Source: Mesorhizobium sp. SARCC-RB16n
GTDB taxonomy: Bacteria; Pseudomonadota; Alphaproteobacteria; Rhizobiales; Rhizobiaceae
Direction: 5' to 3'
DNA length: 64,000 nt
Assembly: GCF_008520305.1 (NCBI RefSeq)
Contig: NZ_ML703268.1
Location: 150,784-214,783, forward strand
The translations under genes and the position numbers were made by a program. Position 1 is the stretch's first letter, and the number at the start of each line of letters is the position of its first letter. This document shows, piece after piece, positions 18,151 through 58,410 of the stretch. The notes beneath the pieces were generated by a model. The model was not told the DNA's origin. It did not search any database and worked only from the letters and a program-made list of their open reading frames with translations.

Positions 18151-18358
18151 TCATTTGGCAAGGGGTAGCAACCAATTGAAAAACAAGCGATATCCCGATT
18201 TGTTCTTTTTTTGTCTTGCCAAGCCGGTCAGGAACAGGCTCCGCATTGGGCCAGCCGGGCCCAGCATCCCACCCCGCCGAATCGCCGTCTTGCGTGCGAA
18301 GCTCTGTCGCGCACTCTAGCGCTTGTGCGGCTACAACAACAAAGGTCATATCGCCGCC

Positions 18359-19303: not shown

Positions 19304-19360
19304 GACCGGCAAATTCATAAAGCGCAGTGGATGCGCCGCACTCCGGATTGGAGATCAGAC

Positions 19361-20278
19361 ATGACGCCAGAGACCGCCCGCCCCTTCATCGATATCCACG
19401 CACCGGTGGCGCAGGCCCTGGCCGCCGGACGCCCGGTGGTGGCGCTCGAAAGCACCATCATCACCCATGGCATGCCCTATCCCGACAACGGCGCCATGGC
19501 GGCCAATGTCGAAAAGATCATTGGAGATGGCGGCGCGGTGCCGGCGACGATTGCCGTGGTCAACGGCCGCATCAAAATCGGACTTTCGGACGGCGAACGC
19601 GAATCGCTGGCGATGACGGGTGACGCCATGAAATTGTCGCGCGCCGATCTCGGCTTCGCCGTCGCGCAAGGCCGCACCGGGGGCACCACGGTCGCGGCGA
19701 CCATGATCGCGGCTGAAATGGTCGGAATAAAAGTGTTCGCCACCGGTGGCATTGGCGGCGTGCACAAGGGCGCGGAGAAGAGTTTCGACATCTCGGCCGA
19801 CCTCGATGAACTGGCGCGCACGCCGGTCATCGTCGTCTCGGCCGGCGCCAAGGCCATTCTCGACATCGAAAAGACGCTGGAGGTGCTGGAAACGCGCGGC
19901 GTGCCCGTGGTCGGCCATGGCTGCGAGACGATGCCGGCCTTCTGGTCGCGGCAGTCGCCGTTCCGGGCGCCATTGACCTTGCACAAGCCGGAAGACATCG
20001 CGCATTTCTACCAGACGCGGCAAGCGCTTGGGCTTAGCGGCGGCTTGCTGGTCGCCAATCCGGTCCCGGAAAACCACGAAATCCCCGCTGAAGAAATGGC
20101 CGGCTACATCGAAGCCGCGCAGAAGGCGGCAGAGGCGCTCAACGTTACCGGCAAAGCCGTAACGCCGTTCCTGCTGGGAAAAATCCTCGAACTCACCGGC
20201 GGCCGCAGCCTGAAGACCAACATCGCGCTGGTCGAGAACAATGCGCGATTGGCGGCTAAGATCGCCAAGGCCTTGTAG
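19361..20278 (+). CDS. psuG: Pseudouridine-5'-phosphate glycosidase
   Basis: PsuG cleaves the C-C glycosidic bond of pseudouridine phosphate to uracil and ribose-5-phosphate. The 305-residue protein has ALESTIITHGMPYP near residue 27, KLSRADLGFAVAQGRTGGTTVAATM and ATGGIGGVHKGAE, all typical. It forms a two-gene salvage operon with psuK. Start at 19361, preceded by GGAGATC. Confidence 0.96.
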   Translation: MTPETARPFIDIHAPVAQALAAGRPVVALESTIITHGMPYPDNGAMAANVEKIIGDGGAVPATIAVVNGRIKIGLSDGERESLAMTGDAMKLSRADLGFAVAQGRTGGTTVAATMIAAEMVGIKVFATGGIGGVHKGAEKSFDISADLDELARTPVIVVSAGAKAILDIEKTLEVLETRGVPVVGHGCETMPAFWSRQSPFRAPLTLHKPEDIAHFYQTRQALGLSGGLLVANPVPENHEIPAEEMAGYIEAAQKAAEALNVTGKAVTPFLLGKILELTGGRSLKTNIALVENNARLAAKIAKAL

Positions 20279-42771: not shown

Positions 42772-42926
42772 CGAGGGCGACCGCTCGCTTGCCGGCTGGA
42801 ATCCGCAACCACCGAGGGTGAGACGTCGTGGGTCGGCAGCTCTGTCCGTGTTCCGGATCATTTTTGAATTCCATTTGACTGAATAAATGTTTGATGCGAA
42901 CCTCACGTCAAGTGGGGACGCAAGGC

Positions 42927-44093
42927 ATGGCATTGCGGGGGACCAATCAGGAGTTCGGACGGCCGTACAACCGGCGTATCGTGCTGGAGTCCATCCGCCG
43001 TCATGGCCCGATAGCACGTGGCGACATCGCCAGGCATGTCGGGCTCACCGTCCAGACCGTGTCGACCATCGTTCGCGAACTGGAGGAACAGGGCTACATC
43101 CTGTCCGTGCGCGAAGAGCCGAAGGGGCGTGGCCTGCCACCGGCGACGCTGCGTATCAACCCGGAAGGCGGCTATGCCGTCGGCATCCACCTGACGCCGC
43201 TTGGAATAGACGCCGCATTGATCAATCTCAGCGGCGATGTCATCGAGAGTTCACGCCGCGAAGCGCCCAACGCGGCGCCCGATCATGCGTTCGAGCAGAT
43301 TGGCGCCATGGTCCGCGACCTGACGGGCAAGCGGCCCGGCGGCCGCGTCATCGGCATCGGCATGGCGCTTCCCGGTCCGTTCGACGTGGACTCCATGAGC
43401 TTTGTCGGCCCGACCACGATGACCGGTTGGAAGCACGTGGCGCTGCGTGAACGGCTGACGGCCGCGACGGGATTGCCGGCGTTCTTCGAGAGCGACATGG
43501 CCGCCGCCGCGATGGGCGAGCGGCTCTATGGCATCGGAGCCCGCCATTCCGACTATTATTATCTCTATTTCGGCGTTGGGCTTGGCGGCGCCATGATGCA
43601 TGACGGCGCCGTTCTGCGCGGCGCCTGGGGCAATGCCGGCGAGATCGGCCACATTCCCGTGGTCCCTGACGGCGAGCTTTGCCCCTGCGGCAACCGAGGC
43701 TGCCTCGAGCGCTACCTCTCGCTCGAAGCGCGGGGCCGCTGGGCCGGCGACGACACCGATTGGGTGGCGCAAGTCGGCCCGATCTTCCGCAACACCATCG
43801 CCATCATCGAAAACCTCTTCGACCCAGAGACGGTCGTGCTCGGCGGCTTGGCGGCATCGGAGTTGCTCGAACGCCTGGCAGACGCGGCCGAACCGCTGCA
43901 CAATTCGGTCTCGGCCCGCGCGGACCGCAAGACGCCGCGTGTCATCGTCGCCAGCGGCGGCCAGCATGCCGTGCTGCGCGGCGCCGCGGCCCTCGCCGTT
44001 TCCGGGGTGTTGTCGCCCCGCTTCGGCCAGATGTTCGCCGCCGAACGCGAGCGCGGCCGCGACATCCTTTCGGCCAGGGAGATTGCCGCATGA
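42927..44093 (+). CDS. ROK family transcriptional regulator
   Basis: A 388-residue repressor-like protein with an N-terminal winged helix (IVLESIRRHGPIARGDIARH and LTVQTVSTIVRELEEQG) and a ROK sugar-binding domain: GIGMALPGPFDVD near 142, GVGLGGAM, GEIGHIPV and the CPCGNRGCLE zinc motif near 250. The ATG at 42927 is chosen from starts at 42891/42894/42927. Stop and the ABC ATPase start overlap as ATGA, so the regulator is the first gene of the operon it probably controls in response to a sugar. Confidence 0.92.
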   Translation: MALRGTNQEFGRPYNRRIVLESIRRHGPIARGDIARHVGLTVQTVSTIVRELEEQGYILSVREEPKGRGLPPATLRINPEGGYAVGIHLTPLGIDAALINLSGDVIESSRREAPNAAPDHAFEQIGAMVRDLTGKRPGGRVIGIGMALPGPFDVDSMSFVGPTTMTGWKHVALRERLTAATGLPAFFESDMAAAAMGERLYGIGARHSDYYYLYFGVGLGGAMMHDGAVLRGAWGNAGEIGHIPVVPDGELCPCGNRGCLERYLSLEARGRWAGDDTDWVAQVGPIFRNTIAIIENLFDPETVVLGGLAASELLERLADAAEPLHNSVSARADRKTPRVIVASGGQHAVLRGAAALAVSGVLSPRFGQMFAAERERGRDILSAREIAA

Positions 44094-44854
44094 GCGAACC
44101 CCTGCTGGTGCTCGACAACGTGACCAAGAACTATGGCGCGATCGAAGCGCTGAAGGGGATCAGCTTTTCCATCGGCAAGGGCGAGGTCGTGGCGCTGCTC
44201 GGCGACAATGGCGCCGGCAAGTCGACGCTGGTCAAGATCATTGCGGGCGGTCTCGAACCGACCTCCGGCCGCATGCTGTTCGAGGGCAAGGACTTCCTGG
44301 CCCGGTCGCCGGCGGAAGCCAAGGCGGCGGGGATCGAAACCGTCTACCAGGACCTATCGCTCTGCACCAATGTCGACGTGGTGGCCAATTTCTTCATGGG
44401 CCGCGAGATCACCAGGAAGGTGCTTGGCATTCCCGTGCTCGATGAGCGCGCCATGGAAGCCGTCGTCGGCAAGGCGCTGGCCAGCGCCGGCACCCGCATT
44501 CCATCGCTGCGCACCAATGTCGAGCATCTCTCGGGCGGCCAGCGGCAGGCCATCGAGCTCAACCGCTTCGTGCATTGGGGCGGCAAGCTGGTGCTGCTCG
44601 ACGAGCCGTTCGCCGCGCTTGGCGTCGAACAGACGCGGCGCGGTCTCGACATGATCCGCCAGGTGGCGAGCCAGGGCATCGGCGTCGTCATCATCACCCA
44701 TATCATGCAGCAGGCTTTCCAGGTCGCCGACCGGATCGTGGTGATCCGGCAAGGCGTCGTGGCGGGCGATGTCGCACGCAACAAGACAAGTCCCGACGCG
44801 GTGATCAACATGATCACCGGGGAGACGCTCGCCGGTGCCGGACCGGCGGGCTAA
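44090..44854 (+). CDS. CUT2 sugar ABC transporter ATPase (single domain)
   Basis: The 254-residue ATPase has Walker A GDNGAGKST near 38, signature LSGGQRQ near 148 and Walker B LVLLDEPFAALG near 168. CUT2 ATPases are usually double-length (about 500 aa). Single-domain forms, as in the fructose FrcA type, occur. It energises uptake with the binding protein and permease that follow. Confidence 0.92.
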   Translation: MSEPLLVLDNVTKNYGAIEALKGISFSIGKGEVVALLGDNGAGKSTLVKIIAGGLEPTSGRMLFEGKDFLARSPAEAKAAGIETVYQDLSLCTNVDVVANFFMGREITRKVLGIPVLDERAMEAVVGKALASAGTRIPSLRTNVEHLSGGQRQAIELNRFVHWGGKLVLLDEPFAALGVEQTRRGLDMIRQVASQGIGVVIITHIMQQAFQVADRIVVIRQGVVAGDVARNKTSPDAVINMITGETLAGAGPAG

Positions 44855-44893
44855 GGGACAAAGAGGGGTCCGGCTTAACAGGGAGCCAACGAC

Positions 44894-45934
44894 ATGAAGC
44901 GAATACTTCTTGCTGTCTTCGGTATCCTGGCACTGGCTTTTGCCACGCTCACGCCGGCATTCGCGCAGTCCAAGGGTACTGTCTACTACATGGTGCCGAC
45001 ATTGCTCGACGAGTTCCAGACTGGCTCGGTGAGCGCGCTGGAGCTGTTCCTGAAACAGACCGGCTACGAGATGAAGACGCTGAACGCCGACAACAAGACC
45101 GACGCGCAGCAATCGCAGATGAACGACGTCATCGCGCTGAAGCCGGCGGCGATCATCCTGGCCGCCGTCGATTTCAATGCGTTGAAACCATCGATCGAGG
45201 CAGCCCGCGCCGCCGGCATTCCGATGATCGAGTTCGACCGCCAGATCACGTCGACACCGTCCGACTTCACATCGGTCGCGGGTACCGTCGAGATCGGCTA
45301 CGTCGCCGCGGACCAGGCCGAAAAGCTTCTTAAAGCCAAGAACGGCTCGGTGAAGGGCAAGGTCCTTCAGGTGCTTGGCGATCCCGGCGATCCCTACACG
45401 CTCGACATCCAGAAGGGTTTTGAAGAGAAGATGAAGGCGTTCCCGGACGTCAAGATCATCTCGCTGCCGGCCATGCAATGGGAGGCTAGCAATGCCGGCA
45501 CCATCGTTGCCGACCAGATGCTGGCCAACCCCGACATCGACCTGATCTTCAGCCATGCCGCACACCTGTCGGTCGCCGCTGTCGCTTCGCTCGAGGCCGC
45601 CGGAAAGAAGCCAGGCGACGTCATGCTGATGAGCTCGAACGGTGCGCCGGTCGGCCTCGACCTGATCCGCAAGGGCTGGCTCAACGTCGAGGTCGAGCAG
45701 CCGCTTTACGCACAGGCCGCTGCCGTCGCCATGTTTATGGACAAGGTCGTCAAGAAGGAAGAGATCAAGCCCGGCGAATACGACGTGCTTGGCCTGAAAT
45801 CGACCGTCACCAAGGAAGCCTGGGGCCCGAACATCAAGATTCCGGGCGCCGCCATCACCAAGGAGAACGTCGACAATCCGGCCTTTTGGGGCAACCAGAA
45901 GCCGCCGACCGACACGGTCAAATCAGTCGAATAG
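44894..45934 (+). CDS. CUT2 sugar ABC transporter, periplasmic binding protein
   Basis: A 346-residue protein with a signal peptide ([19 protein letters not shown], cleavage after AFA-Q near 26) and the type I periplasmic binding fold of ribose/fructose-binding proteins: [29 protein letters not shown] near 115, and [15 protein letters not shown]. The sugar is not decided by motifs. It starts 39 bases after the ATPase gene with a GGGAGCC site upstream. Confidence 0.93.
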
Positions 45935-46051
45935 GCATGCCGCCTGAAACGCTCCGGGCCATACCCGGCCCGGAGCCTTTCCCTGCCCTCATGGAACGAG
46001 ACGCAGACAATTCGCTGCGGCCTTGATTGCGCACGCCAATCGGATCGACAC

Positions 46052-47047
46052 ATGAACCTTCGCACACGCCATGCCCTGGAGTTCGTCCTCGACAACCTCG
46101 TCTGGTTCATGCTGCTTCTTGTCCTGGTTGTCTTCTCGCTGTTCATCCCGAACTATTTCCAGCTCGGAATCTTCGCCAACATCATCGAGGCATCGAGCGT
46201 GCTCGGCGTCATGTCGATCGGCCTGGCGCTGGTCATTATTGCCGGTCACATGGACCTGTCGGTCGAATCCGTCGCCGCGCTCAGCGCCATGGCGGTGGGC
46301 ATCCTGTTTTGTTCCTCGGGCATCGGCCTCGGCGTCCAATTGCACCCGGAATGGCTGATGGTTCCGGTCTCGCTGCTGCTGGCGCTGGCCGTCGGCGGCC
46401 TCATCGGCGCGTTCAACGGCTATCTTGTGGTCAAGGTCAAGATGAGCGCTTTCATCATCACCTTGGCCTCCTACATCTGGGTACGCGGCCTCGTGCTGGT
46501 CATTTCGGGCGGCCGCTCGGCGCAGGACCTGGCGCCTGCCATCCGCTGGTTCGGCATCCAACGCCTGATCGGCCTGCCGCTTACCGCCTGGATCGCGGTC
46601 GCCTGTTTCGTGGTCTTCTCGCTGATCATGGCCAAGACGCCGTTTGGCAGGCACCTCGTGATGATCGGCGGCAATGAAACTGCGACCTTCCGCGCCGGCA
46701 TACGGGTGAATCGCAACTTGATCATCGCCTTCGTGCTCGCCGGCGCCATCGCCGGCCTGGCAGGCTGGCTGCTGGCGATCCGCACTTCGGGCGCCACCGC
46801 CAATCTGGGTGTAGGCCTTCTGTTCAATGCCTTTGCGGCCGTGGTTATCGGCGGCGTCAGCCTGAAGGGCGGCGTCGGCACCCTGCCCGGCGTCTACGCC
46901 GGCGTGCTTCTGCTCTCTGCCATCAACACGGCGATCAACCTGATGGGCCTGCCCGCCAACTTCACCCAGGTCATCCATGGCCTGCTGGTTCTGGCAGCCG
47001 TCTTGCTCGACGCATTCAAGCAAACCATCCGCCAAAGATTGGCATGA
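46052..47047 (+). CDS. CUT2 sugar ABC transporter permease
   Basis: A 331-residue integral membrane protein of the RbsC/FrcC type, with 8 to 10 helices and the coupling motif GGNETATFRAGIRVNR near residue 208. It forms the channel for the transporter. About 117 bases separate it from the binding protein gene. Its last codons and stop (ATTGGCATGA) are repeated twice more just downstream. Confidence 0.93.
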   Translation: MNLRTRHALEFVLDNLVWFMLLLVLVVFSLFIPNYFQLGIFANIIEASSVLGVMSIGLALVIIAGHMDLSVESVAALSAMAVGILFCSSGIGLGVQLHPEWLMVPVSLLLALAVGGLIGAFNGYLVVKVKMSAFIITLASYIWVRGLVLVISGGRSAQDLAPAIRWFGIQRLIGLPLTAWIAVACFVVFSLIMAKTPFGRHLVMIGGNETATFRAGIRVNRNLIIAFVLAGAIAGLAGWLLAIRTSGATANLGVGLLFNAFAAVVIGGVSLKGGVGTLPGVYAGVLLLSAINTAINLMGLPANFTQVIHGLLVLAAVLLDAFKQTIRQRLA

Positions 47048-47080
47048 GAGGGGATTGGCATGAGGCGGGAATTGGCATGA
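47038..47080 (+). repeat. Three copies of ATTGGCATGA at the permease-SDR junction
   Basis: ATTGGCATGA occurs at 47038-47047 (includes the permease stop), 47054-47063 and 47071-47080, with 16- and 17-base steps. The repeats carry a GCATGA that resembles a start-stop pair. A short tandem duplication of the gene end is the likeliest origin. Confidence 0.75.
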
Positions 47081-47093
47081 CAGGACGGCTCGC

Positions 47094-47864
47094 ATGACAG
47101 CACGACTGAAAGACAAGGTGGCGTTGATCGTCGGCAGCGCGCGCGGCATCGGCAAAGGCATCGCGCTGCGCTTCGCCGAAGAAGGCGCAAGGCTGGTGCT
47201 GGCCGATTCGGAGGAGGAGGCCGGGCAAGCAAGTGCGGATGAACTCGGCGTCCCCTTCATCCGCACCGACATCTCGGTAATGAGCGACGCCGAGGCCGCG
47301 GTGGCGCTTTCGCTGAAACACCACGGCCGCCTCGACATTATCGTCCAGAATGCCGGCATCTATCCCTGGCAGTTGATCGAAAACACCAGCACCGACGACT
47401 GGGACCGCGTTATGGCCGTCAACCTGCGCGGCACTTTCAATGCTAGCCGCGCGGCCCTGGCGCCGATGAAGGCGCAGCGCTTCGGGCGCATGCTCTACAC
47501 CTCTTCCATCACCGGCCCGCACGTTACCAGCCCCGGCCATGGCCATTATTCGGCGACCAAAGCAGGCATCAACGGCTTCATCCGCGCGGCCGCGCTGGAG
47601 TTTTCCGGCTACGGCATCACCGTCAACGGCGTCGAACCCGGCAATATCCTCACCGAAGCCATTCAGCAGCATCGCGGCGATGCCTATATCAAGAACATGG
47701 AGGATTCGATCCCGCTCGGCCGGCTCGGCAGCCCGCGCGACGTGGCTAACGCCTTCCTGTTCCTCGCCTCGGACGACGCCAGCTACATCACCGGCACGAC
47801 CATCGTCGTCGATGGCGGGCAATTGCTGCCCGAGGGCAAGGATTTCCGGATGGTGCCGCCGTGA
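47094..47864 (+). CDS. Short-chain dehydrogenase/reductase
   Basis: A 256-residue NAD(P)-dependent SDR: VGSARGIGKGIALRF (TGxxxGIG variant), NAGIY near residue 83, Ser in SSITGPH and YSATKAG with the Tyr/Lys pair near residue 152, and PEGKDFRMVPP at the end. It is the last gene of the ROK-ABC operon, so it probably oxidises the imported sugar or its lactol. Confidence 0.92.
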   Translation: MTARLKDKVALIVGSARGIGKGIALRFAEEGARLVLADSEEEAGQASADELGVPFIRTDISVMSDAEAAVALSLKHHGRLDIIVQNAGIYPWQLIENTSTDDWDRVMAVNLRGTFNASRAALAPMKAQRFGRMLYTSSITGPHVTSPGHGHYSATKAGINGFIRAAALEFSGYGITVNGVEPGNILTEAIQQHRGDAYIKNMEDSIPLGRLGSPRDVANAFLFLASDDASYITGTTIVVDGGQLLPEGKDFRMVPP

Positions 47865-48672: not shown

Positions 48673-49188
48673 GTGTCTATCGCCTCAACCACTTCGATGA
48701 GCACGGTGTTCACGGCCATAAGCTTTGCTGGCCTTACAATAGTTGCTTCCGCCATCTTTCCCGCCACTGCTTCGGCTGCTCGGCTTCAGCGATGCGCAAG
48801 GGAGGGCGGCATTTGCCGACTGCCATTTCCGGCTGAAGTGGTTTTTGGCGACGGAGGCCGCACTACATCGCGCTTTATCGACCGTGACGCGGTCCCATGC
48901 TCAACTCGCGTTTTTGGCGACCCTGCGCCTGGCCACGAAAAGACGTGCTCTATCGTGTTGCGCGATCGTGGCGAATCCGATGGCGGTTACGATGAGCCTC
49001 GCCGCGAGAGATGGGTGGCCTGTGCCGATGAAGGCGAATTCTGCGATTTCTATGGCCGCAAGGTGGTCAGGTATGGCGCGCGCGGCCGGTTCACGCAGGA
49101 CGTGTTCCGGGATGGCGTCGAATGCGACAATGATTCCTTCGGCGATCCCGCTCCCGACGCCGGGAAGCGCTGCTACATCAAGCAGTAG
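48673..49188 (+). CDS. Secreted Cys-rich protein with two FGDP repeats
   Basis: The 171-residue protein starts at GTG 48673 with an excellent GGAGG (48661-48665). A signal peptide ends near ATASA (about 35). The mature part is a tandem repeat of about 55 residues: each half has C-x5-C near the start, a V-C before an FGDPAP motif and K-x-C at the end (four Cys per repeat). FGDPAP occurs at about residues 81 and 157. The pattern resembles a small FGDP...K.C domain seen in secreted proteins of other bacteria and fungi, from memory. Function unknown. Confidence 0.8.
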   Translation: MSIASTTSMSTVFTAISFAGLTIVASAIFPATASAARLQRCAREGGICRLPFPAEVVFGDGGRTTSRFIDRDAVPCSTRVFGDPAPGHEKTCSIVLRDRGESDGGYDEPRRERWVACADEGEFCDFYGRKVVRYGARGRFTQDVFRDGVECDNDSFGDPAPDAGKRCYIKQ

Positions 49189-49272: not shown

Positions 49273-50217
49273 TCAGCTCTTGGCCAGCAGCGCCTCGACC
49301 TCCTGCAATGTCGGCATCGACGGTGCGGTGCCTGGACGGGTCACGGAAATGCCGGCAATAGCGCAGGCGAAGCGCACCGCCTCCAGAGGCTCCACGCCGC
49401 GCGACAGTGCTGCGGCAAGGCCGCCACTGAAGGCGTCCCCCGCGCCGGTGGTCTCCACGACAGGGCCGGCACTGATGGCTGGAACATGCTCGGAGCGATC
49501 CTTCGTGTGCAGGAGCGCGCCCTTATCGCCGAGCGTGACGATGACCGTGCCGACGCCCTTTTCGAGCAGCTTGCCGGCGGCGGCGCGCGCTTCATCGGGC
49601 GAGGAGACTTTCAGTCCGGTCAATTCCTCCGTCTCTGTCTCGTTAGGCGTGAGATAGTCGCAGAGCGTGTAGATGCGGTCGGGGAGCTTTGCCGCCGGTG
49701 CCGGATTGAGAATGGTCGTCACTCCTGCCCTGCGCGCGATCTCCAGCGCCCGCATCGCGGCTTCGATCGGCTGTTCGAGCTGCGTCACGAAAACACCGGC
49801 ACCACGGATCAGCTCGACATTGGCCTCGATATCCTCAGGCGTGATCAGCATGGCAGCGCCGGGGCTGACGATGATGGCGTTGTTGCCGCTTCCCTCCTCG
49901 ACGAAGATGTAGGCGGCGCCCGTATAGCTGTCCGGCGTGTCGATGGCCGCGCTCTTCACGCCGGCATCCTTCCAGGTCCGCTTGGCCATGTCGGCGAAGG
50001 CATCGACGCCGAGCCGGGTCAGGAACGTGACGTCCGCCCCCAGCTTGCCGGCCGCCACCGCCTGGTTCGACCCCTTGCCGCCTGGCCCCAGCTTGAAGGA
50101 ATTGCCGAGGATCGTTTCGCCCATGCGCGGCTGGCGCTGCGCCCTGTAGGCCGTATCGGCGACGAACACGCCCAATATGACGACAGGCTTCATGACGATC
50201 GGCTTGCCCGAGGCCAT
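49273..50217 (-). CDS. Ribokinase-like PfkB sugar kinase
   Basis: A 314-residue PfkB kinase: GETILGNSFKLGPGGKGSNQAVAAGKLGADV near residues 32-62 and ETTGAGDAFSGG near residue 260 with the catalytic Asp. It resembles ribokinase in length and motifs. The start at 50217 begins MASGKPIVMK; 50193 is an alternative. It is downstream of an RbsD/FucU gene, 4 bases apart, so it may phosphorylate the sugar the mutarotase supplies. Confidence 0.88.
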   Translation of the reverse strand: MASGKPIVMKPVVILGVFVADTAYRAQRQPRMGETILGNSFKLGPGGKGSNQAVAAGKLGADVTFLTRLGVDAFADMAKRTWKDAGVKSAAIDTPDSYTGAAYIFVEEGSGNNAIIVSPGAAMLITPEDIEANVELIRGAGVFVTQLEQPIEAAMRALEIARRAGVTTILNPAPAAKLPDRIYTLCDYLTPNETETEELTGLKVSSPDEARAAAGKLLEKGVGTVIVTLGDKGALLHTKDRSEHVPAISAGPVVETTGAGDAFSGGLAAALSRGVEPLEAVRFACAIAGISVTRPGTAPSMPTLQEVEALLAKS

Positions 50218-50221
50218 GCCG

Positions 50222-50674
50222 CTACTCCGCATCCGGCGGCACGACGCCCTTGCGGAAGGCAAAGCAGCCGTAGAAGCGGCGTTCGCCGGTCTGGATGACG
50301 CAATAAGCCTGCTTTGCGCGTTCGTAGAAGGCGTAACGCTCGACCGGCACCATAGGCCAGGATTTACCCTCGGCGGCGTCGATCTCCTTCTGCACTTCCT
50401 TCTGTACCGTTGGGATCTCGTCGGGCTTGCCGACGATCTCCATGCGGGCTGCCGAGTCGTCGACGAACGTGTCCAGCGGGTAAAGCGACAGCACCGCCTT
50501 CACCACCTGCGCCGCCGAGGCATCGATGCGCAGCACCCGACCGAGCGCCGTCTGGCGCGCGACCGAATCGGACGGGAAGTTGGTGTCGGCGATGATCAGG
50601 TCGTCGCCATGTCCCATCGCGCGCAAAGCCTGGAGCACGTCGGCATTGAGCAACGGATCGATCCCTTTGAGCAT
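50222..50674 (-). CDS. RbsD/FucU family sugar mutarotase
   Basis: The 150-residue protein has MLKGIDPLLNADVLQALRAM, GHGDDLIIADTNFP near 21-34 and RFYGCFAFRKGVV near the C-terminus: FucU/RbsD signatures, including the catalytic His/Asp/Tyr. The family interconverts anomers of fucose or ribose. FucU-like length (about 140-150). It lies between the ABC ATPase (27 bases) and kinase genes (4 bases). Confidence 0.92.
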   Translation of the reverse strand: MLKGIDPLLNADVLQALRAMGHGDDLIIADTNFPSDSVARQTALGRVLRIDASAAQVVKAVLSLYPLDTFVDDSAARMEIVGKPDEIPTVQKEVQKEIDAAEGKSWPMVPVERYAFYERAKQAYCVIQTGERRFYGCFAFRKGVVPPDAE

Positions 50675-50700
50675 GATGTCCTCGTGAAGTGCGTTTGAGA

Positions 50701-51750
50701 TCAGAGACGCTTGCCGGTCTCGGCGTCGAACAAATGGAGATGATCGAGCCTTGGCCGAAGCTTCAGCGTATCGCCGGGCTTGAAGTCGTGGCGCTCGCGA
50801 AACAGCGCCACCATCTCGCCGTCGCCAAAGCGCAGAAAGACCAGGGTTTCCGAACCGGTCGGCTCGACCACGGAAATCTTCGCCGGCACACCATCCGGGT
50901 GGATCTCGAGATGTTCGGGGCGCACACCATAGACGACGGAGCGCCCCTCCTCGACGGCGTTGTTTGGAGCGACCGGGAACAGCGTTCCGGCAATGTCGAC
51001 GCCACCCTTGCGACCGGTACCCTTGAGCAGGTTCATCGACGGCGAGCCGATGAACCCGGCAACGAAAAGATTGGCCGGCCGGTCGAACAGCTCCAGCGGC
51101 GCGCCGACCTGTTCGATGCGACCGTCGCGCATGACGACGATCTTGTCGGCCATCGTCATGGCTTCGATCTGGTCGTGGGTGACATAGATGGTGGTGGTCT
51201 TCAGCCGCTGGTGCAGTTCCTTGATCTCGGTGCGCATCTGCACGCGCAGCTTGGCGTCGAGGTTCGAAAGCGGCTCGTCGAACAGGAATACCTGCGGATT
51301 GCGCACGATCGCGCGACCCATGGCGACGCGCTGACGCTGGCCGCCGGAAAGCTGGCGCGGATAGCGCTTCAGATAGGGGCTGAGGTCGAGGATGTCGGCG
51401 GCGCGCTTGACCCGCTCGGCCACCACGGCCGGATCGGTCTTGCGCAACTTGAGCGCGAAGGCCATGTTCTGCTCGACCGTCTTGTGCGGATAGAGCGCAT
51501 AGTTCTGGAACACCATGGCGATGTCGCGCTTGGCCGGCGGCAAATGATTGACGACACGATCGCCGATGACGATCGTGCCGCCGGAGACGGTCTCCAGCCC
51601 CGCCACCATCCTGAGCAGCGTGGACTTGCCACAACCGGATGGGCCGACCAGCACGACGAACTGGCCATCGGCAATGTCGACGCTGACTTCGTGCAGAACC
51701 TTGACGGTTCCAAATGCCTTGGCCACATTGCTGATCGCGACTTGAGCCAT
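50701..51750 (-). CDS. CUT1 sugar ABC transporter ATPase (UgpC/MsmX type)
   Basis: A 349-residue ATPase: Walker [10 protein letters not shown] near 37, [14 protein letters not shown] near 133, Walker [17 protein letters not shown] near 155, and a TOBE domain in the C-terminal third ([11 protein letters not shown]). Such ATPases serve CUT1 sugar importers. It is divergent from the binding protein and permease genes, so the promoter region between (51751-52025) probably serves both. Confidence 0.94.
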
Positions 51751-51846
51751 CGTTCCCCCATCGGCCCCACTGGCCGTAGGCGCAGAAGCTAACCAACGCG
51801 ACCTGTCAGGGCAAGTCGGTCCCTTATAGATAAAAACCCGTTCTCG

Positions 51847-51875
51847 TTGACACGGCGTTTGGTTGTGAGAATAGT
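51847..51875 (+). promoter_or_regulatory. Possible promoter for the CUT1 binding protein gene
   Basis: TTGACA (51847-51852), 17 bases, then AATAGT (51870-51875). The -35 is a perfect consensus, the -10 is weak. It would give a leader of about 145 bases before 52026. The rest of the 275-base divergent spacer shows no clear operator. Confidence 0.4.
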
Positions 51876-52025
51876 GACGGGCGCCGATCCGAACGCCGGT
51901 ACTCTACCCGAAAAACGGAACCCGAAGCGACGCAGGTTGGGGTCGTGGTTTCGCTTCTGAACAAGGCCAGCGCCGGGCACGATTGGCACTTCGATTCACG
52001 ACTAACGTTCTGGGAGGAATAGTCC

Positions 52026-53690
52026 ATGAGAGTAGATCTTTACGAAAAACTGGTCCGTGCCGGCGCTACCAGACGCGACATACTGAAAGGCGCGGCCAGC
52101 ATGGCCGCGATCGCGGCGGCATCGGGCGCGGGCCTCGGCGCCTTGACGCGTCCTGCCTCCGCGGCAAGCGAACTTCGTGCGAAAATCCTGCAGATTCCCG
52201 GCGTTGGCAAAGGCCAGCCGACCGATGCCGATTTCCAGAAGGTCGGCGAGCTCTGTCTCGATGCGACCAAGGCAAGTGTCAAGCAAGGCGAGTTTGCCGG
52301 GGTCGAGCTTGCGTTCATGGGCCTCAACAACCAGAACCTGCACAATGTGCTGTTCCGCGGCTTCCTGAAGCCATGGGAGACCTATACCGGCGCCAAGATC
52401 AACTGGATCGATCTGGCGCAAGCGGATTACAACGCCCGCCTGCAGCAGTCGATCGCCACCGGAACCGTCGACTTCGACATTGCCGAGATGGGCGCGCCTT
52501 TCGAAGGCGATGTCTGCGGCAAGGGACTCACTTCGGAAATGCCCGACTGGGTCAAGAAACAGATCGATCTCGACGACCTCGTCAATTATCTGAAGCCGCC
52601 GGTCGGCACCTGGGATGGCAAGCAGTATCGCGTCACCATCGACGGCGACACGCACAATTTCAACTACCGCACCGACGTGTTCGCCGACGCGGATCTCGCC
52701 AAGCAGTGGAAGGACGGCGGCGGTGCCGGCGAATGGGGCGTGCCGAAGACCTGGCAGCAGGTGCAGGCCGTCACCAAGTTCCTCAAGGGCAAGAAATTCA
52801 AGGGCCAGGATGTCTATGGCTACCTCGATGCGCCCAAACCATGGGGCGGTTTCGGCTTCTACTTCCTCGGCAGCCGTGCCAGCGCCTATGCCAAGCATCC
52901 CGACGATAAGGCCTGGCTGTTCGACGCCGACACGATGAAGCCACGTATCAACAACCCGGCCTGGGTGCGTGCCATCCAGGACGTGATCGACGCGCTGCCA
53001 TCAGAACCCGCCGACCAGATCAACGCCGACCCGAACACCACTGGTTTCCAGCAGTTCCTGGCCGGAACCGGTTCAATGATCCCCTGGTGGGGTGACATCG
53101 GCTCCAATGCCAAAACCAACGATTCCTCGGTGATTGGCGACCTTTGCGGCTTCGACATCCTGCCGGGCTCGGATGACGTCTACAATTCCAAGACCGGCAA
53201 ATGGGACAAGCTGCCGGGCGGACCGAACTACGCGCCCAACCTCGCCTATCTCGGCTGGGGCGTCTATGTCATGGCCCGCGTCGACAGCGATCCGAAGAAG
53301 CACAAGGCAGCCTGGAGCGCGGCGGCGCATCTCGGTGGCAAGGATCTGGCAATCTGGACGGCGATGTATCCGTCCGGCTTCCAGTGCTACCGCAACAGCC
53401 AGCACGACATCGACGAATGGGTGGCCGCCGGCTACGACAAGGCCTTCATCACGAACTACCTCGACTCCCAGTTCAACTCTTACAATCATCCGAATGGTGC
53501 TATCGAGCCACGTATCCCCGGCATCTTCCAATACTACAGCGCTGCCGAGGACATCCTGGCCAATACGTTCGCAGGCAAGATGAAGGCACAGGAGGGTGCC
53601 GATGCCATTGCCGCCGCCTGGGAGAAGCTGACCGACCAGATCGGCCGCGAGAAGCAGATCAAACTCTATAAGGCCTCGCTCGGCGCCTAG
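52026..53690 (+). CDS. CUT1 sugar ABC transporter, binding protein with Tat-type signal
   Basis: A 554-residue extracellular solute-binding protein of family 1, longer than most (about 420). The N-terminus has TRRDILKGAASMAAIAAAS, a twin-arginine signal, suggesting folded export to the periplasm. WIDLAQADYNARLQQSIATG near residue 130 and FQQFLAGTGSMIPWWGDIGS near 340 mark the sugar-binding lobes. GGGAGGA lies 10 bases before the ATG. Substrate unknown. Confidence 0.9.
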   Translation: MRVDLYEKLVRAGATRRDILKGAASMAAIAAASGAGLGALTRPASAASELRAKILQIPGVGKGQPTDADFQKVGELCLDATKASVKQGEFAGVELAFMGLNNQNLHNVLFRGFLKPWETYTGAKINWIDLAQADYNARLQQSIATGTVDFDIAEMGAPFEGDVCGKGLTSEMPDWVKKQIDLDDLVNYLKPPVGTWDGKQYRVTIDGDTHNFNYRTDVFADADLAKQWKDGGGAGEWGVPKTWQQVQAVTKFLKGKKFKGQDVYGYLDAPKPWGGFGFYFLGSRASAYAKHPDDKAWLFDADTMKPRINNPAWVRAIQDVIDALPSEPADQINADPNTTGFQQFLAGTGSMIPWWGDIGSNAKTNDSSVIGDLCGFDILPGSDDVYNSKTGKWDKLPGGPNYAPNLAYLGWGVYVMARVDSDPKKHKAAWSAAAHLGGKDLAIWTAMYPSGFQCYRNSQHDIDEWVAAGYDKAFITNYLDSQFNSYNHPNGAIEPRIPGIFQYYSAAEDILANTFAGKMKAQEGADAIAAAWEKLTDQIGREKQIKLYKASLGA

Positions 53691-53789
53691 ATGGACCCTT
53701 GATATAAGTCTCGGCCCGGCGTCACATCATCGCCGGGCCGAGTTTTGACCGGCTCTTGTTCGGTCAGTGTGGCAGAAGAGGCGAGAGGC

Positions 53790-54911
53790 GTGGCTGAACA
53801 GACTTCGACCACGAATGCGTGGCCGGCAAATTCCGCACCAATGGATCTGATCCCGCCTGGCCGCAAACGCCTCGGCTGGGCACTGATGGCCTTGGCCACA
53901 TTCGGCCTCCTGGCGACAATCCTGCTTCAGATCCTCTACAAGAGCGAGGTCGATACGATCGGCTTCGAGACCTGGCGACCGGTCGTCTATGCCTACGTGC
54001 TGTGGGGCGTGGCTATCGGCATCGGCCAGGTGCTGACGCGTGGCGAGGACGGCCAGCGCGCGCTGTTCCTGCTGCCGGCCCTGCTGTTCACCATCGCCAT
54101 GGTGATCTTCCCGACGCTGTTCGGCTTCTACATCGCGCTGACGGACTGGAACCTGAGTTCTTTCTCGGGCCGAAAATTCAACGGGCTCGACAATTTCTGG
54201 CAGATGCTGGGCGATCCCTACTACCGCAATGCGCTGTTCAATATGGTGCTTTATGTGCTGGCGGTGCTGGTGGAATATGTCATCGCCTTCGCGCTGGCGC
54301 TGTTGCTCAACGCACAGATCCGGGCGCGAAAATTCTTCCGTGTCGTCTTCCTGATGCCGCTGATGCTGTCGCCGGTCGCGGTGTCCTGGATGATCGGCAA
54401 ATCGCTGATGGAGTACCGGTTCGGCCCGGCAGCGACGCTGGCGCGCCACCTCGGCTGGGACAATCCCGCCTTCTTCTCCGACCCGATCACAGCTCGCATT
54501 TCGGTCATGATGCTGGACGCCTGGACCTTCATTCCGTTCATGATGATCATGCTGCTGGCCGGACTGCAGGCGATGTCGCGCGAGGTGCTGGAGGCGGCAC
54601 GTGTCGATGGCGCCAGTGCATGGCAAACCTTCTGGCAGGTCACCTTCCCGCTGATGCTGCCGGTGTCGGTGACCGCCGTCGTCCTGCGCATCATCTTCAA
54701 GCTGAAGCTTGCCGACATCATCATCACGGTGACGTCGGGCGGCCCGGGCGGTGCCACCGATTCCGTGTCGAGCTTCATCTACCGCGAATACCGCGACCGC
54801 TCGAATGTCGGCTACGGCACCATGCTGGCGATGGCCTATCTTGTCATCATCGTCGTGTTCGTGACCTGGCTCCTGAAGATCGCCAACCGCTTCGTGCGCA
54901 ACGTCAACTAG
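53790..54911 (+). CDS. CUT1 sugar ABC transporter permease 1 (MalF-like)
   Basis: A permease of about 373 aa with 8 or so helices, including two extra N-terminal ones, and the EAA loop EVLEAARVDGASAWQTFWQV near residue 267. It pairs with the next permease. The start is unclear: TTG 53745, GTG 53769 or GTG 53790, chosen for a GAAGAGG region upstream. A 12-base gap to the next permease. Confidence 0.9.
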   Translation: MAEQTSTTNAWPANSAPMDLIPPGRKRLGWALMALATFGLLATILLQILYKSEVDTIGFETWRPVVYAYVLWGVAIGIGQVLTRGEDGQRALFLLPALLFTIAMVIFPTLFGFYIALTDWNLSSFSGRKFNGLDNFWQMLGDPYYRNALFNMVLYVLAVLVEYVIAFALALLLNAQIRARKFFRVVFLMPLMLSPVAVSWMIGKSLMEYRFGPAATLARHLGWDNPAFFSDPITARISVMMLDAWTFIPFMMIMLLAGLQAMSREVLEAARVDGASAWQTFWQVTFPLMLPVSVTAVVLRIIFKLKLADIIITVTSGGPGGATDSVSSFIYREYRDRSNVGYGTMLAMAYLVIIVVFVTWLLKIANRFVRNVN

Positions 54912-54923
54912 AGCGGCCGGATC

Positions 54924-55841
54924 ATGAGTGTTCAGACCACCGACTATACCGTCTCCGAAATCCGCTCCCCGGCTAGCTTCATCACCAGCCGTGTCTTCAT
55001 CTATGGCGCGCTTGTCTTCTGGGCTTTCATTTGCCTGTTCCCCATCTACTGGACGATAACGACCTCGTTCAAATCGGCGGTCGACGTCACGCAAGGGCAT
55101 CTGATCCCGTTTGTCGACTTCCAGCCGGATTGGAAAGGCTGGCGATCGCTTGGCCTGTCGCCGGACTCGATCTTCCAGACCTCGACCGTGCGCGACGAGT
55201 TCCTCAAGCGTTTCATGAACTCGGTCATCACCTCGGTTGGTGCGTCGAGCCTGGCGATCATCATCGGCAGCCTCGCCGCCTATGGCCTCACGCGCTATCG
55301 CTACAAGTTCGCCTGGTTCAAGAACGAGGATATCTCCTTCTTCTTCCTGTCCCAGCTGATCCTGCCGCCGGTGGTGCTCGCCCTACCCTTCCTGGTGCTC
55401 TACCGCGAGGTCGGGTTGCTCGACACCCGCGTCGGACTGATCCTGCTCTACACGCTGATGGTGCTGCCGATCGTCATCTGGATCATGCGTGACCAGTTCA
55501 ATTCCATCCCCGTCGAACTCGAGGAAGCCGCCCTTGTCGACGGCCTATCGATCTGGGGCGCCTTTTTCCGTATCGTCATGCCGATCGCGCTGCCGGGCAT
55601 GGTCGCCGCCTTCATCCTGGCGATGGTGCTATGCTGGAACGAGTATTTCTTCGCCGCCCTTTTGACTTCGACGGACGCCAAGACAATCCCGGTCATGGTC
55701 GCCAGCCAGACGGGGTCGCAAGGCATCAACTGGTGGTCAATGGCTGCCCTTGCCACCGCGGCGATCGCGCCGCTGGCGATCATCGGCATCGCGCTGGAAC
55801 GCTACCTGATCATGGGCATGACGGCAGGTGCGGTGAAGTGA
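54924..55841 (+). CDS. CUT1 sugar ABC transporter permease 2 (MalG-like)
   Basis: The 305-residue permease has six helices and the EAA loop ELEEAALVDGLSIWGAFFRIV near residue 200, followed by IALPGM. It completes the CUT1 importer with the binding protein and the divergent ATPase. The AYGLTRYRYKFAWF region is before helix 3. A degenerate hairpin remnant follows at 55850-55876. Confidence 0.92.
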   Translation: MSVQTTDYTVSEIRSPASFITSRVFIYGALVFWAFICLFPIYWTITTSFKSAVDVTQGHLIPFVDFQPDWKGWRSLGLSPDSIFQTSTVRDEFLKRFMNSVITSVGASSLAIIIGSLAAYGLTRYRYKFAWFKNEDISFFFLSQLILPPVVLALPFLVLYREVGLLDTRVGLILLYTLMVLPIVIWIMRDQFNSIPVELEEAALVDGLSIWGAFFRIVMPIALPGMVAAFILAMVLCWNEYFFAALLTSTDAKTIPVMVASQTGSQGINWWSMAALATAAIAPLAIIGIALERYLIMGMTAGAVK

Positions 55842-55883
55842 CCGGGCGCCTTCACCTCCCTTGTGGGAGAAGGTAGGGTCGCG

Positions 55884-56627
55884 CTAGGCTTTCAGGATCG
55901 CGCGCAGGTGATCCATGATCATGGCGACGCCCCTCTGTCCGAGTTCTGCCGAGGCATCCGCCGCGCTCGCCGTATACCAGCTTTTGTTATCCGCCAAGTG
56001 AGCGGCATCCACTGCTTCCGGACATAGCGCCAGCATCAGCGACGTCTCGCCGATGCCGGCATGGTCGAACGGATAGTGGCCGTTCATGGCGGCCGGCATC
56101 AGCGGATGCACCTGCACCCAGTTGAAGAAGTTTTCGCCCGCCGCATGTCCGGCATAGTAATCGGCCATCGCCTCCGACCCCCACCAACCCTCGCCGCGCG
56201 TCTTCTCGAGGAAGCGGAAGATCGCCTGTCTGCCGGCGGTCTTGAAAGCGAGATCGGTCGGCATGCCGGCGGCGAAATTCTCGGTCTGGTGATGAATGAT
56301 GGCGTGGATGTTGCGGAAACCGATACGCAGCAGGCTGTAGAACAGTTCCTCGCCGAATGGCGCCAGTTGATTGCCGCCGACCTGAACGGAGCCGCTGCCT
56401 TCCGGTGGCGCGACGGCATAGCTCGCCGCACCGTAATAGAAGGGCGGCAGGATGACGATGTCGCTCTCCTTTTCGAACAGTTCCAGCGTCTTGATGACGG
56501 CCAGTGTGTCCATGCCGACGGCCATGTGCTCGCCATGGTATTCCAGCACGCCGAGCGGCAGTGCGACCGGCCAATTCTGAGCGATCGCCTTACGGATCTG
56601 GTGCGGCAGCATCAGTTCATAGCGCAT
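55884..56627 (-). CDS. Creatininase family hydrolase
   Basis: The 247-residue protein has the creatininase metal motif GVLEYHGEHMAVGMDT near residues 26-41 (E-x-H-G-x-H-x-x-x-x-x-D). HHQTENFAAG near 112, and SLMLALCPEAVD near residue 195. The family includes creatinine amidohydrolases, IolN-type 3-dehydro-scyllo-inosose hydrolases and FAPy deformylases. Here it is paired with a SIS protein, 3 bases downstream of it, next to a sugar transporter, so a ring-opening hydrolase in sugar or cyclitol breakdown is a guess. Confidence 0.85.
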   Translation of the reverse strand: MRYELMLPHQIRKAIAQNWPVALPLGVLEYHGEHMAVGMDTLAVIKTLELFEKESDIVILPPFYYGAASYAVAPPEGSGSVQVGGNQLAPFGEELFYSLLRIGFRNIHAIIHHQTENFAAGMPTDLAFKTAGRQAIFRFLEKTRGEGWWGSEAMADYYAGHAAGENFFNWVQVHPLMPAAMNGHYPFDHAGIGETSLMLALCPEAVDAAHLADNKSWYTASAADASAELGQRGVAMIMDHLRAILKA

Positions 56628-56630
56628 GAT

Positions 56631-57197
56631 CTATTCCATGTTGGTGTGGCGGGCGCGCATCGCTTCCGGCGACGCCGAAGTCAATTCCCTGAGTTTCAGC
56701 ACCATGGTCTCGAACAGCAGGAACAACGCGCCCTCGAACACCGAGCCCATCGGCAGCACCGACGTCTTTTGCGGCCCTTGGTCGTCGGCCATGGTCTGCG
56801 CCGGGATCAGCAGCATCAAATCGGCCAGCCCTGCGGCGCTGCCGTCTGCCTGGGCGGTCAGGAGCAGGACGGTCGCGCCGGCCTCGCGCGCGATGCGCAT
56901 CAGGGTGAGTACGGTCGAGGTTTCGCCAGGCCCGGAACTGACAAGGAAGACATCGCCCTGCCCTACGGGCGGCGTGGTCATGTCGCCGACCACCGAAACC
57001 GGCAGGCCCAGATGATAGAGCCGCATGGCGAAGCCCTTCACCTGCAGGGCTTCGCGGCCGCAGCCATAGGCGACGATCTGTCTGGCACCCGCCAGCATCC
57101 CGCAAGCGGCATCGATCCGGTCGCCATCGACGCGCGCCAGCACCGCGCCAAGCTCGTCGAGCGCGGTCCTGAACATTTGCGAGGCGGAATTGCTCAT
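56631..57197 (-). CDS. SIS-domain protein, sugar phosphate isomerase-like
   Basis: The 188-residue protein is a stand-alone SIS domain: IVAYGCGREALQVKGFAMRL near residue 40, FLVSSGPGETSTVLTLM near 83. It resembles 6-phospho-3-hexuloisomerase and other small SIS isomerases that bind phosphosugars. It sits upstream of the creatininase-family gene, so the two form an operon. The frame goes to 57239; the ATG at 57197 fits. Confidence 0.85.
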   Translation of the reverse strand: MSNSASQMFRTALDELGAVLARVDGDRIDAACGMLAGARQIVAYGCGREALQVKGFAMRLYHLGLPVSVVGDMTTPPVGQGDVFLVSSGPGETSTVLTLMRIAREAGATVLLLTAQADGSAAGLADLMLLIPAQTMADDQGPQKTSVLPMGSVFEGALFLLFETMVLKLRELTSASPEAMRARHTNME

Positions 57198-57387
57198 GGC
57201 CCCTCCGCCGGCGTGCCGGCAATCGAAGATGATCGGCAATTCCCGGTCACGCTTTTTCCCCGAACAGCTTGATTTCGTTCATGCTAGCAACCGCGAAAAT
57301 GCGTGTCCAACGCTCAGCGGTGCTTTTGCCGAGCCACGAGCATGATAGTGTCATGTCAGACAAATCAATCCGGGAAAATCTCAAGAC

Positions 57388-58410
57388 ATGAAGACACGGC
57401 ATTTCGACCGCATCGGCAATGGCGGCATCACCTTCACGGAGCTGGGCTTCGGCACGGCTCCGCTCGGCAATCTTTACCGCGCCGTCTTCGACGAGGACGC
57501 CAATGCGACGCTGGAGGCCGCCTGGGCGACTGGCTGCCGCTACTATGACACGGCACCGCTCTATGGGCTCGGCCTGTCGGAAACACGCCTCAACCCGTTC
57601 CTGCGCTCAAGGAAGCGCGACGACTACGTGCTGTCGAGCAAGGTCGGCCGCATCATGCGCGCCTGCCCGCCAGAGGAGCGCACGGGCATCGGCAAGTTCT
57701 TCGACACGCCGTCGCGCAAGGAGGTCTATGACTACAGCTATGACGGCGTCATGCGCTCGTTCGAGGCCTCGCTGGAGCGGCTCGGCGTCGATCGCATCGA
57801 CATCCTGTTCGTGCACGATGTCGACATCTTCACCCATGGCAGCAAGGAGGCGTCCGACCAGCGCATCGATGAGTTCATGCGCTCGGGCTATTATGGCCTG
57901 CTCGCCCTGCGCGACCAGGGCGTCATCAAGGCGTTTGGCGGCGGCATCAACGAGTGGCAGGTGGCGCAGACACTGGCCGAGCGCGGCGATTTCGATCTGT
58001 TCCTGCTTGCCGGGCGTTATACGCTGCTGGAACAGGAGGCGCTGACCTCTTTCTTGCCGCTTTGCCAGAAACGCGGCATCGGCATCGTTCTCGGCGGCCC
58101 CTACAATTCCGGCATCCTGGCGACCGGACCGAAGCCGGGCGCCTACTACAACTATTCCGAAGCGCCGCAGGATGTGCTCGAGCGCGTGACGCGCATCGAG
58201 GCTGTCTGCAAGCTCCATGGTATCAGGCTGATCGAGGCCGCCCTGCAATTCCCTCTCTTGCACCCGTCGGTGGTTTCGGTCATCCCCGGCGGTCAGCGGC
58301 CTGAAGAAGTCGACAGCAACCGGTCGCTTCTGGACGCGAAACTCCCTGCAGCGCTCTGGGCCGATCTCAAGAAGGAAGGCCTGATGCGGGCGGACGCGCC
58401 GACTGCGTGA
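57388..58410 (+). CDS. Aldo/keto reductase, L-fucose/D-threo-aldose dehydrogenase-like
   Basis: A 340-residue AKR: GFGTAPLGNLY near residue 20, YYDTAPLYGLGLSETRLN with catalytic Asp and Tyr near 51-62, SSKVGR with the Lys near 84, and FVHDVD with the His near 139. The YGLGLSE type occurs in D-threo-aldose (L-fucose) 1-dehydrogenase and pyridoxal 4-dehydrogenase. With the FucU-like gene nearby, lactone-forming oxidation of a fucose-like sugar is plausible. The start at 57388 is an ATG. Confidence 0.88.
   Translation: MKTRHFDRIGNGGITFTELGFGTAPLGNLYRAVFDEDANATLEAAWATGCRYYDTAPLYGLGLSETRLNPFLRSRKRDDYVLSSKVGRIMRACPPEERTGIGKFFDTPSRKEVYDYSYDGVMRSFEASLERLGVDRIDILFVHDVDIFTHGSKEASDQRIDEFMRSGYYGLLALRDQGVIKAFGGGINEWQVAQTLAERGDFDLFLLAGRYTLLEQEALTSFLPLCQKRGIGIVLGGPYNSGILATGPKPGAYYNYSEAPQDVLERVTRIEAVCKLHGIRLIEAALQFPLLHPSVVSVIPGGQRPEEVDSNRSLLDAKLPAALWADLKKEGLMRADAPTA

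Follow-up and report, generated by a model that had tools for sequence, protein, structure and literature searches.

A nine-gene sugar-use block occupies positions 49273-58410 of a 64,000-nucleotide stretch of the Mesorhizobium sp. SARCC-RB16n chromosome (hereafter the window), beside hupB-lon-clpX. Our main result is that a subfamily of creatininase-fold hydrolases, encoded within this block, is tied to a specific sugar importer by both its distribution and its gene order in two bacterial families. The block itself is of a known kind, with a CUT1 importer, a FucU-type anomerase, a ribokinase-type kinase, an aldo-keto reductase (AKR) and a SIS-fold isomerase, to which an unassigned hydrolase subfamily is attached. 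Relatives within the creatininase fold are amide-cutting enzymes. All of these genes had been named in the initial annotation and each is present where it was placed; the annotation had also joined hydrolase, importer, FucU and kinase into one sugar-use block, which synteny and co-occurrence support, so that its observation is confirmed and its interpretation partly upheld.

The hydrolase gene follows the importer

The two genes were traced at a match threshold of E 1e-60 in 109 Mesorhizobium genomes, 100 of which carry the importer's binding protein and 95 the creatininase-family gene. Both occur in 95 genomes, neither in nine, the binding protein alone in five (G021, G841, G863, G870 and G890) and the creatininase-family gene alone in none; in G841 and G863 the importer lies on short contigs of less clean assemblies. 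For g67, a genus of another family represented by 37 genomes, the counts are 12 with the creatininase-family gene and 15 with the binding protein: both in 11, the hydrolase alone in one (G827, 89% complete), the binding protein alone in four and neither in 21. By Fisher test the association reaches 5e-10 in Mesorhizobium and 2e-5 in g67, both values made too optimistic by the relatedness of the genomes. Across 397 evenly drawn genomes of the order, creatininase-family matches at 1e-20 were confined to 13 genomes, all of Mesorhizobium or g67 among the 141 genera covered, and none of 72,556 plasmid records matched at 1e-10. The binding protein matches 144 plasmid records at 1e-20, with a best place of at least 60% identity in 104 of them.

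Gene order in g67 repeats the association. The creatininase-family gene adjoins the importer ATPase gene divergently in four of an initial six loci (L039, L041, L043 and L044) and in L171. It lies apart from the binding protein gene in G220, and in G170 and G833 the two genes sit on separate contigs, each at a contig end, where adjacency cannot be judged. The creatininase-family gene is thus tied to the importer in two families.

Conservation within Mesorhizobium was followed in 80 loci, the best 80 of 194 stretches matched by the creatininase-family protein when named genomes were scanned; by title 78 belong to Mesorhizobium, and the other two are a 'Bacterium M00...' and a 'Hyphomicrobiales bacterium'. 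Gene order is constant up to the contig ends, the SIS gene excepted. The AKR is present in 80/80 loci, as is, by construction, the creatininase-family gene; the permeases are found in 77, and the binding protein, FucU, ATPase and RbsK in 76. Judging by locus lengths, the missing members belong to loci truncated by contig ends, and importer, FucU and rbsK stand together in every locus but the four cut in this way. The SIS gene is detected in 74 loci by a loose test, and so is gone from six, and is intact in 72 by a stricter one, with five loci lacking any match, one holding a remnant and two having the gene split in two. In these eight (L103, L104, L111, L115, L122, L131, L132 and L140) AKR and creatininase-family genes are nonetheless retained. 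Ratios of nonsynonymous to synonymous substitution rates (dN/dS) against eight Mesorhizobium loci were 0.07-0.13 for the creatininase-family gene, 0.07-0.11 for the AKR and 0.03-0.07 for lon, and 0.16-0.22 for the SIS gene in the seven of these loci that have it. Each value is well under one, which indicates purifying selection; the genes of the block are real and conserved.

These genes are not, however, one obligatory chain. The initial annotation had suggested a linear scheme in which the AKR oxidises the sugar and the creatininase-fold enzyme hydrolyses the product. This is not supported, since the pair is split in both directions. In five g67 loci (L039, L041, L043, L044 and L171) the creatininase-family gene adjoins the importer, and neither AKR nor SIS is matched within the stretch taken. 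Conversely, the divergent Mesorhizobium genome G870 keeps importer, FucU, RbsK, AKR and SIS and lacks the hydrolase; its run reads ATPase-fucU-rbsK-akr, with SIS across the importer, and this set suggests that AKR and SIS belong to the block independently of the hydrolase. G021 has importer, FucU, RbsK and AKR at the locus, where creatininase-family and SIS genes are absent. The eight loci that keep AKR and hydrolase with a lost or damaged SIS gene also fit the linear scheme poorly. A g67 genome may hold an AKR of the block type elsewhere, as G105 does, by which an AKR-then-hydrolase order is weakened only; separability from both AKR and SIS nevertheless leaves a chain from AKR product to creatininase-family enzyme unsupported. 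The hydrolase thus follows the importer and not these two enzymes. In two further genomes, G890 has importer, FucU and RbsK in the stretch together with a more distant AKR only (45%), and G834 carries SIS beside a TIM-barrel isomerase and a PfkB kinase, without the creatininase-family gene.

The importer and the enzymes of the block

The features of the block are as follows.

49273-50193, minus strand: rbsK, ribokinase-type PfkB kinase (TIGR02152, 314.2 bits against a cut-off of 299.65, scored on the open reading frame 49273-50262)
50222-50674, minus strand: fucU, FucU/RbsD-family anomerase (PF05025)
50701-51750, minus strand: UgpC/MalK-type CUT1 ATPase (NF008653, 505.3 bits against 432)
51751-52025: divergent promoter region between ATPase and binding protein (conserved blocks in 27 aligned sequences including the window)
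52026-53690, plus strand: large CUT1 substrate-binding protein, 554 amino acids (Tat-like start by eye; family profile leads to PDB 5iai)
53769-54911, plus strand: CUT1 permease 1 (PF00528; start uncertain)
54924-55841, plus strand: CUT1 permease 2 (PF00528)
55884-56627, minus strand: creatininase-family metal hydrolase of its own subfamily (PF02633, 90.6 bits against 31.3)
56631-57197, minus strand: SIS-fold, HxlB-like phosphosugar isomerase (TIGR03127, just under its cut-off)
57198-57387: divergent promoter region between SIS-creatininase and AKR (conserved blocks in 26 aligned sequences including the window)
57388-58410, plus strand: AKR of the L-fucose/L-galactose dehydrogenase type (PF00248)

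The ATPase belongs to the UgpC subfamily by its curated score. The binding protein has no Pfam or NCBIfam match at 1e-3 and, taken alone, no match in the Protein Data Bank; a profile of its family finds 5iai, a 'Sugar ABC transporter', as the best entry (1.5e-35). AlphaFold models of the binding protein and the creatininase-family protein, both built on shallow Mesorhizobium alignments, reached mean predicted local distance difference test scores of 44.3 and 40.8, too poor in the latter case, and neither was used.

Around the rhizobial plasmid orthologs of the importer, of about 78% identity, lie FucU and ribokinase genes, genes for a TIM-barrel isomerase, for a CUT2 importer and for an RpiR-type regulator, and a second ribokinase gene; importer, FucU and rbsK occur together in three of the four annotated loci, and a Phyllobacterium plasmid locus has FucU and only the more distal ribokinase, the first being missing. 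A group of about 68% identity has LacI, FucU and ribokinase in one run (both loci viewed). Among 12 g67 importer loci, a xylose-isomerase-like TIM-barrel protein is found in 11, an FGGY kinase in ten and an M42 metallopeptidase-like hydrolase in ten, the two loci without FGGY lying on short contigs. FGGY kinase and xylose-isomerase-like protein could lead to the same ketose 5-phosphate as a kinase and SIS isomerase, by the reverse order of steps. The importer of G591 neighbours FucU, FGGY and M42, and that of G699 lies near FGGY, M42, BtpA/SgcQ, PfkB, TIM-barrel isomerase, aldehyde dehydrogenase, DeoC, RbsK, FucU and ATPase genes. Of the distant binding-protein homologs taken (nine, at about 25-32%), five are members of fucU-rbsK-CUT1 runs, L151 with DeoC and L150 with aldehyde dehydrogenase. 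As separate observations, FGGY kinase, M42 and BtpA/SgcQ genes form a run near the importer in L043, L044, L149, L164, L165 and L166, two of these families also being represented among the E. coli sgc genes, and BtpA/SgcQ, FGGY kinase, SDR, a DeoR-type regulator and a CUT1 importer recur as a cluster on plasmids of Shinella, Labrenzia and Thermus (L186, L187 and L188).

The best solved relatives of RbsK are ribokinases, and the closest solved chain to FucU is Atu2016 (E 2.1e-64). The HxlB likeness of the SIS protein goes beyond what the initial annotation had given; over almost its whole length the protein can be aligned with B. subtilis YckF, an HxlB, including the C-terminal HxNxE. Hexulose-phosphate synthase (HxlA), the other enzyme of the ribulose monophosphate (RuMP) pathway, was found over its cut-off in 0/12 genomes, with weak matches under the cut-off in eight, by a search whose control exceeded the cut-off in 2/14 and whose 12 genomes did not include the window's own assembly. 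The SIS protein therefore has no visible RuMP partner there, and that pathway was rejected.

The five best of 40 Protein Data Bank matches to the AKR are L-galactose dehydrogenases. Its clade (support 96/99) includes the AKR of the rbsK run of G870 and one AKR of G105, the latter in the neighbourhood of an altronate-type dehydratase gene, a gene resembling fucU (36%) and what by eye is a CUT2 importer; some branches of the tree are long and the exact order is unsure. Phylogeny and context suggest that the window AKR may be an aldose 1-dehydrogenase. The AKRs that neighbour the dehydratase in Mesorhizobium group apart, at 45-48% identity to that of the window. Such a second AKR lies beside an altronate-type dehydratase in L212, L213, L214 and L217, in some cases accompanied by what looks like a CUT2 importer, and appears to belong to a separate sugar-acid pathway.

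The creatininase-family protein scores far below the curated models of creatininase, IolN and MftE. Creatinine use was rejected, since the creatininase model (TIGR04448) gives 63.9 against 235 bits and the positions of the creatininase-specific residues E122 and W174 hold T and Y, in an alignment where the general metal-site residues of creatininase, E34, H36, D45, H120 and H178, all have counterparts. A cyclitol or inosose pathway, as the initial annotation had also entertained, was likewise rejected, with the model of the 3-dehydro-scyllo-inosose hydrolase IolN reaching 40.6 of 245 bits, over residues 3-115 only.

A possible aldopentose salvage route and its alternatives

We tentatively propose, at somewhat less than an even chance, that the block serves as an island for aldopentose salvage, through which an imported sugar would be delivered to a sugar kinase. 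The CUT1 importer would take up a free aldose, probably a pentose, FucU would speed the exchange of its ring and anomer forms, and the RbsK-type kinase would phosphorylate it. The HxlB-like SIS protein could then convert the aldose 5-phosphate into a ketose 5-phosphate that enters the pentose phosphate pathway, with the AKR, as an aldose 1-dehydrogenase, supplying a side branch by oxidation. The creatininase-family enzyme would assist the importer, and its likeliest task, whether by lactone or by amide hydrolysis, would be to open the corresponding form of the imported compound ahead of the common route. D-arabinose is the favoured substrate and D-ribose the next, as D-arabinose is a pentose with the stereochemistry of L-fucose and would best unite FucU, an AKR of L-fucose-dehydrogenase type, ribokinase and the SIS isomerase. 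GutQ and KpsF are SIS-fold proteins; the titles of cited papers name them as D-arabinose 5-phosphate isomerases. A passage of PMC11301363 describes D-arabinose as a close structural analog of L-fucose, and a passage of PMC11430244 states that human ribokinase makes D-arabinose 5-phosphate in assay. Also in favour of the proposal are the shared loci of importer, FucU and rbsK, the TIGR02152 score of RbsK, the G870 run, the AKR clade, the missing HxlA partner and the FGGY and isomerase genes of g67.

Several points weigh against this proposal. It is read from sequence and gene context, every reaction and substrate being deduced from the gene identity, conservation, co-occurrence and order that were observed, and the Fisher values overstate the independence of related genomes. 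A kinase and a C1 dehydrogenase acting on one sugar are redundant. RbsK falls short of the narrower ribokinase model PRK11142 (282.9 against 341), FucU lies below the cut-offs for both L-fucose mutarotase (87.1 against 141) and the D-ribose pyranase RbsD (35.5 against 93), and the SIS protein, at 155.2 against 160, stays 5 bits under TIGR03127; the SIS gene is, moreover, absent or damaged in 8/80 loci. The E. coli ribokinase has reportedly been mutated for higher D-arabinose activity, to judge by a cited title, which suggests that the wild type may be weak. The 5iai structure, reportedly ribitol-bound, would suit a pentitol equally well. PfkB-type kinases are common in the g67 importer loci, so that an FGGY route is not the sole option there. 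In G699 and in the distant relative L151, fucU-rbsK adjoins DeoC and aldehyde dehydrogenase genes, which points to deoxyribose or ribose at those loci.

The main rival, rather unlikely in our estimate, is the uptake of D-ribose or 2-deoxy-D-ribose, with the CUT1 importer replacing RbsACB, FucU acting as a pyranase, SIS as a ribose-5-phosphate isomerase, and AKR and hydrolase as unrelated neighbours. Taken alone, the kinase suits D-ribose better, having passed the ribokinase equivalog score, and the LacI-FucU-RbsK order of both plasmid loci of about 68% identity viewed, like the DeoC neighbourhoods just described, is in keeping with such a function. Unrelated neighbours would not, however, account for an AKR retained in 80/80 loci and in the G870 rbsK run, or for a creatininase-family gene that co-occurs with the importer.

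It is improbable that the AKR oxidises the aldose to a lactone that the creatininase-fold enzyme opens, in an L-fucose/D-arabinose oxidation whose dehydratase, SDR and FAH-type enzymes are encoded elsewhere. Among the distant binding-protein homologs, L154 is a sugar-oxidation locus in which an AKR relative has a lactonase-like amidohydrolase as its neighbour and which also contains dehydratase, SDR and FAH genes, the amidohydrolase and FAH scoring 196 against 400 and 450 against 500 of their curated cut-offs. An AKR relative also lies near a dehydratase in L216, a dehydratase of that family is present elsewhere in 12/12 genomes searched, G001 has a DeoC-aldehyde dehydrogenase-SDR-FAH set, and a close amidohydrolase lactonase occurs in only one of ten Mesorhizobium genomes (G004, 49%; the others 27-34%). 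Within 49273-58410 itself, none of the lactonase, dehydratase, SDR and FAH genes of L-fucose oxidation was found and the block does not qualify as that pathway. The AKR without the hydrolase in G870 and G021, and the hydrolase without a neighbouring AKR in g67, both argue against this sequence of steps; four Mesorhizobium genomes viewed have a different AKR beside their dehydratase, and kinase and SIS would go unexplained.

Equally improbable, in our view, is that the importer takes up an N-linked sugar (riboside or glycosylamide), from which the creatininase-family enzyme would cut the amide and free the sugar for FucU and RbsK. It is indeed the importer that the creatininase-family hydrolase tracks, not AKR or SIS. 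The M42-like hydrolase, found in 10/12 g67 loci and in both g67 genomes searched, was not detected in 10/10 Mesorhizobium genomes. Yet no gene for either hydrolase is annotated less than 12 kb from six importer orthologs of rhizobial plasmids, in a gene table that is incomplete; the plasmid records, as noted, hold no creatininase-family match, and no nucleobase or amino-acid genes were seen in the block. We give a similarly small chance to a bolder form of the aldopentose salvage proposal, in which an undescribed creatininase-fold subfamily would perform an essential opening of a pentose lactone or N-glycosidic amide for a CUT1-fed salvage of D-arabinose type, followed by kinase then SIS in Mesorhizobium and by TIM-barrel isomerase then FGGY kinase in g67, both lineages arriving at one ketose 5-phosphate.

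Organisation of the block and relation to known systems

The genes form divergent groups and not a single operon, with rbsK, fucU and the ATPase gene reading left, binding protein and permeases right, SIS-creatininase left and AKR right. SIS and creatininase-family genes are separated by 3 nt in the window and by a few bases in all 74 loci with both; the gap from permease 2 to the hydrolase ranges from 28 to 3314 nt across loci. Computed gene by gene for the eight genes other than fucU, third-position GC lies at 0.79-0.84. No regulator gene was seen within the block. The promoter region between ATPase and binding protein contains TTGACA-17-AATAGT at 51847-51875, in a scan that is overall no richer than shuffled sequence (3 sites against a shuffle mean of 2.3). 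A shared operator of the two divergent promoter regions was rejected, as matches of ungapped profiles of 12, 16 and 20 columns, in alignments of 27 and 26 sequences sampled from every third of the 80 loci, were no higher than in column shuffles (in the best case 6/60 shuffles were as high).

The neighbours hupB, lon, clpX and clpP were identified by eye. Elsewhere in the window, 42891-47864 holds a ROK regulator, a CUT2-type binding protein, a BPD_transp_2 permease and an SDR in a row, with no ATPase gene seen between them. A small open reading frame at 48673-49188 (plus strand) has a signal-like start by eye, two approximate copies of a motif whose end reads FGDPAPG..K.C and one 12-nt direct repeat, 69 nt apart, and no Pfam match. 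At 18323-20278, a PfkB kinase is followed by an Indigoidine_A-family protein, which we take to be a pseudouridine-breakdown pair.

The E. coli rbsDACBK system is the familiar layout for ribose uptake. The block resembles it in having an RbsD/FucU-family anomerase and a ribokinase beside a sugar ABC importer, with a LacI gene in some orthologous loci, and differs in its CUT1 instead of CUT2 importer, its FucU-like instead of RbsD-like anomerase, and its additional AKR, SIS and creatininase-family genes. With HxlB it shares the near full-length similarity and the HxNxE of its SIS protein, and lacks the HxlA partner; with creatininase and IolN its hydrolase shares the fold family, both models being far from reached. 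In S. meliloti, a passage of PMC3454389 places an L-fucose CUT2 importer contiguous with SMc02775, a 'putative L-fucose dehydrogenase'; that system likewise pairs an importer with a sugar dehydrogenase and differs in importer class. No description of this block was found in titles and abstract openings of one open-access collection, a scope outside which most subscription journals lie.

The importer is present in 100/109 Mesorhizobium genomes, with orthologs on many rhizobial plasmids, and the link of the hydrolase subfamily to it allows substrate and activity to be sought among a few pentoses. If the reading given here is right, it would represent a new reaction for the creatininase fold, and a carbon source for which rhizobia may compete.

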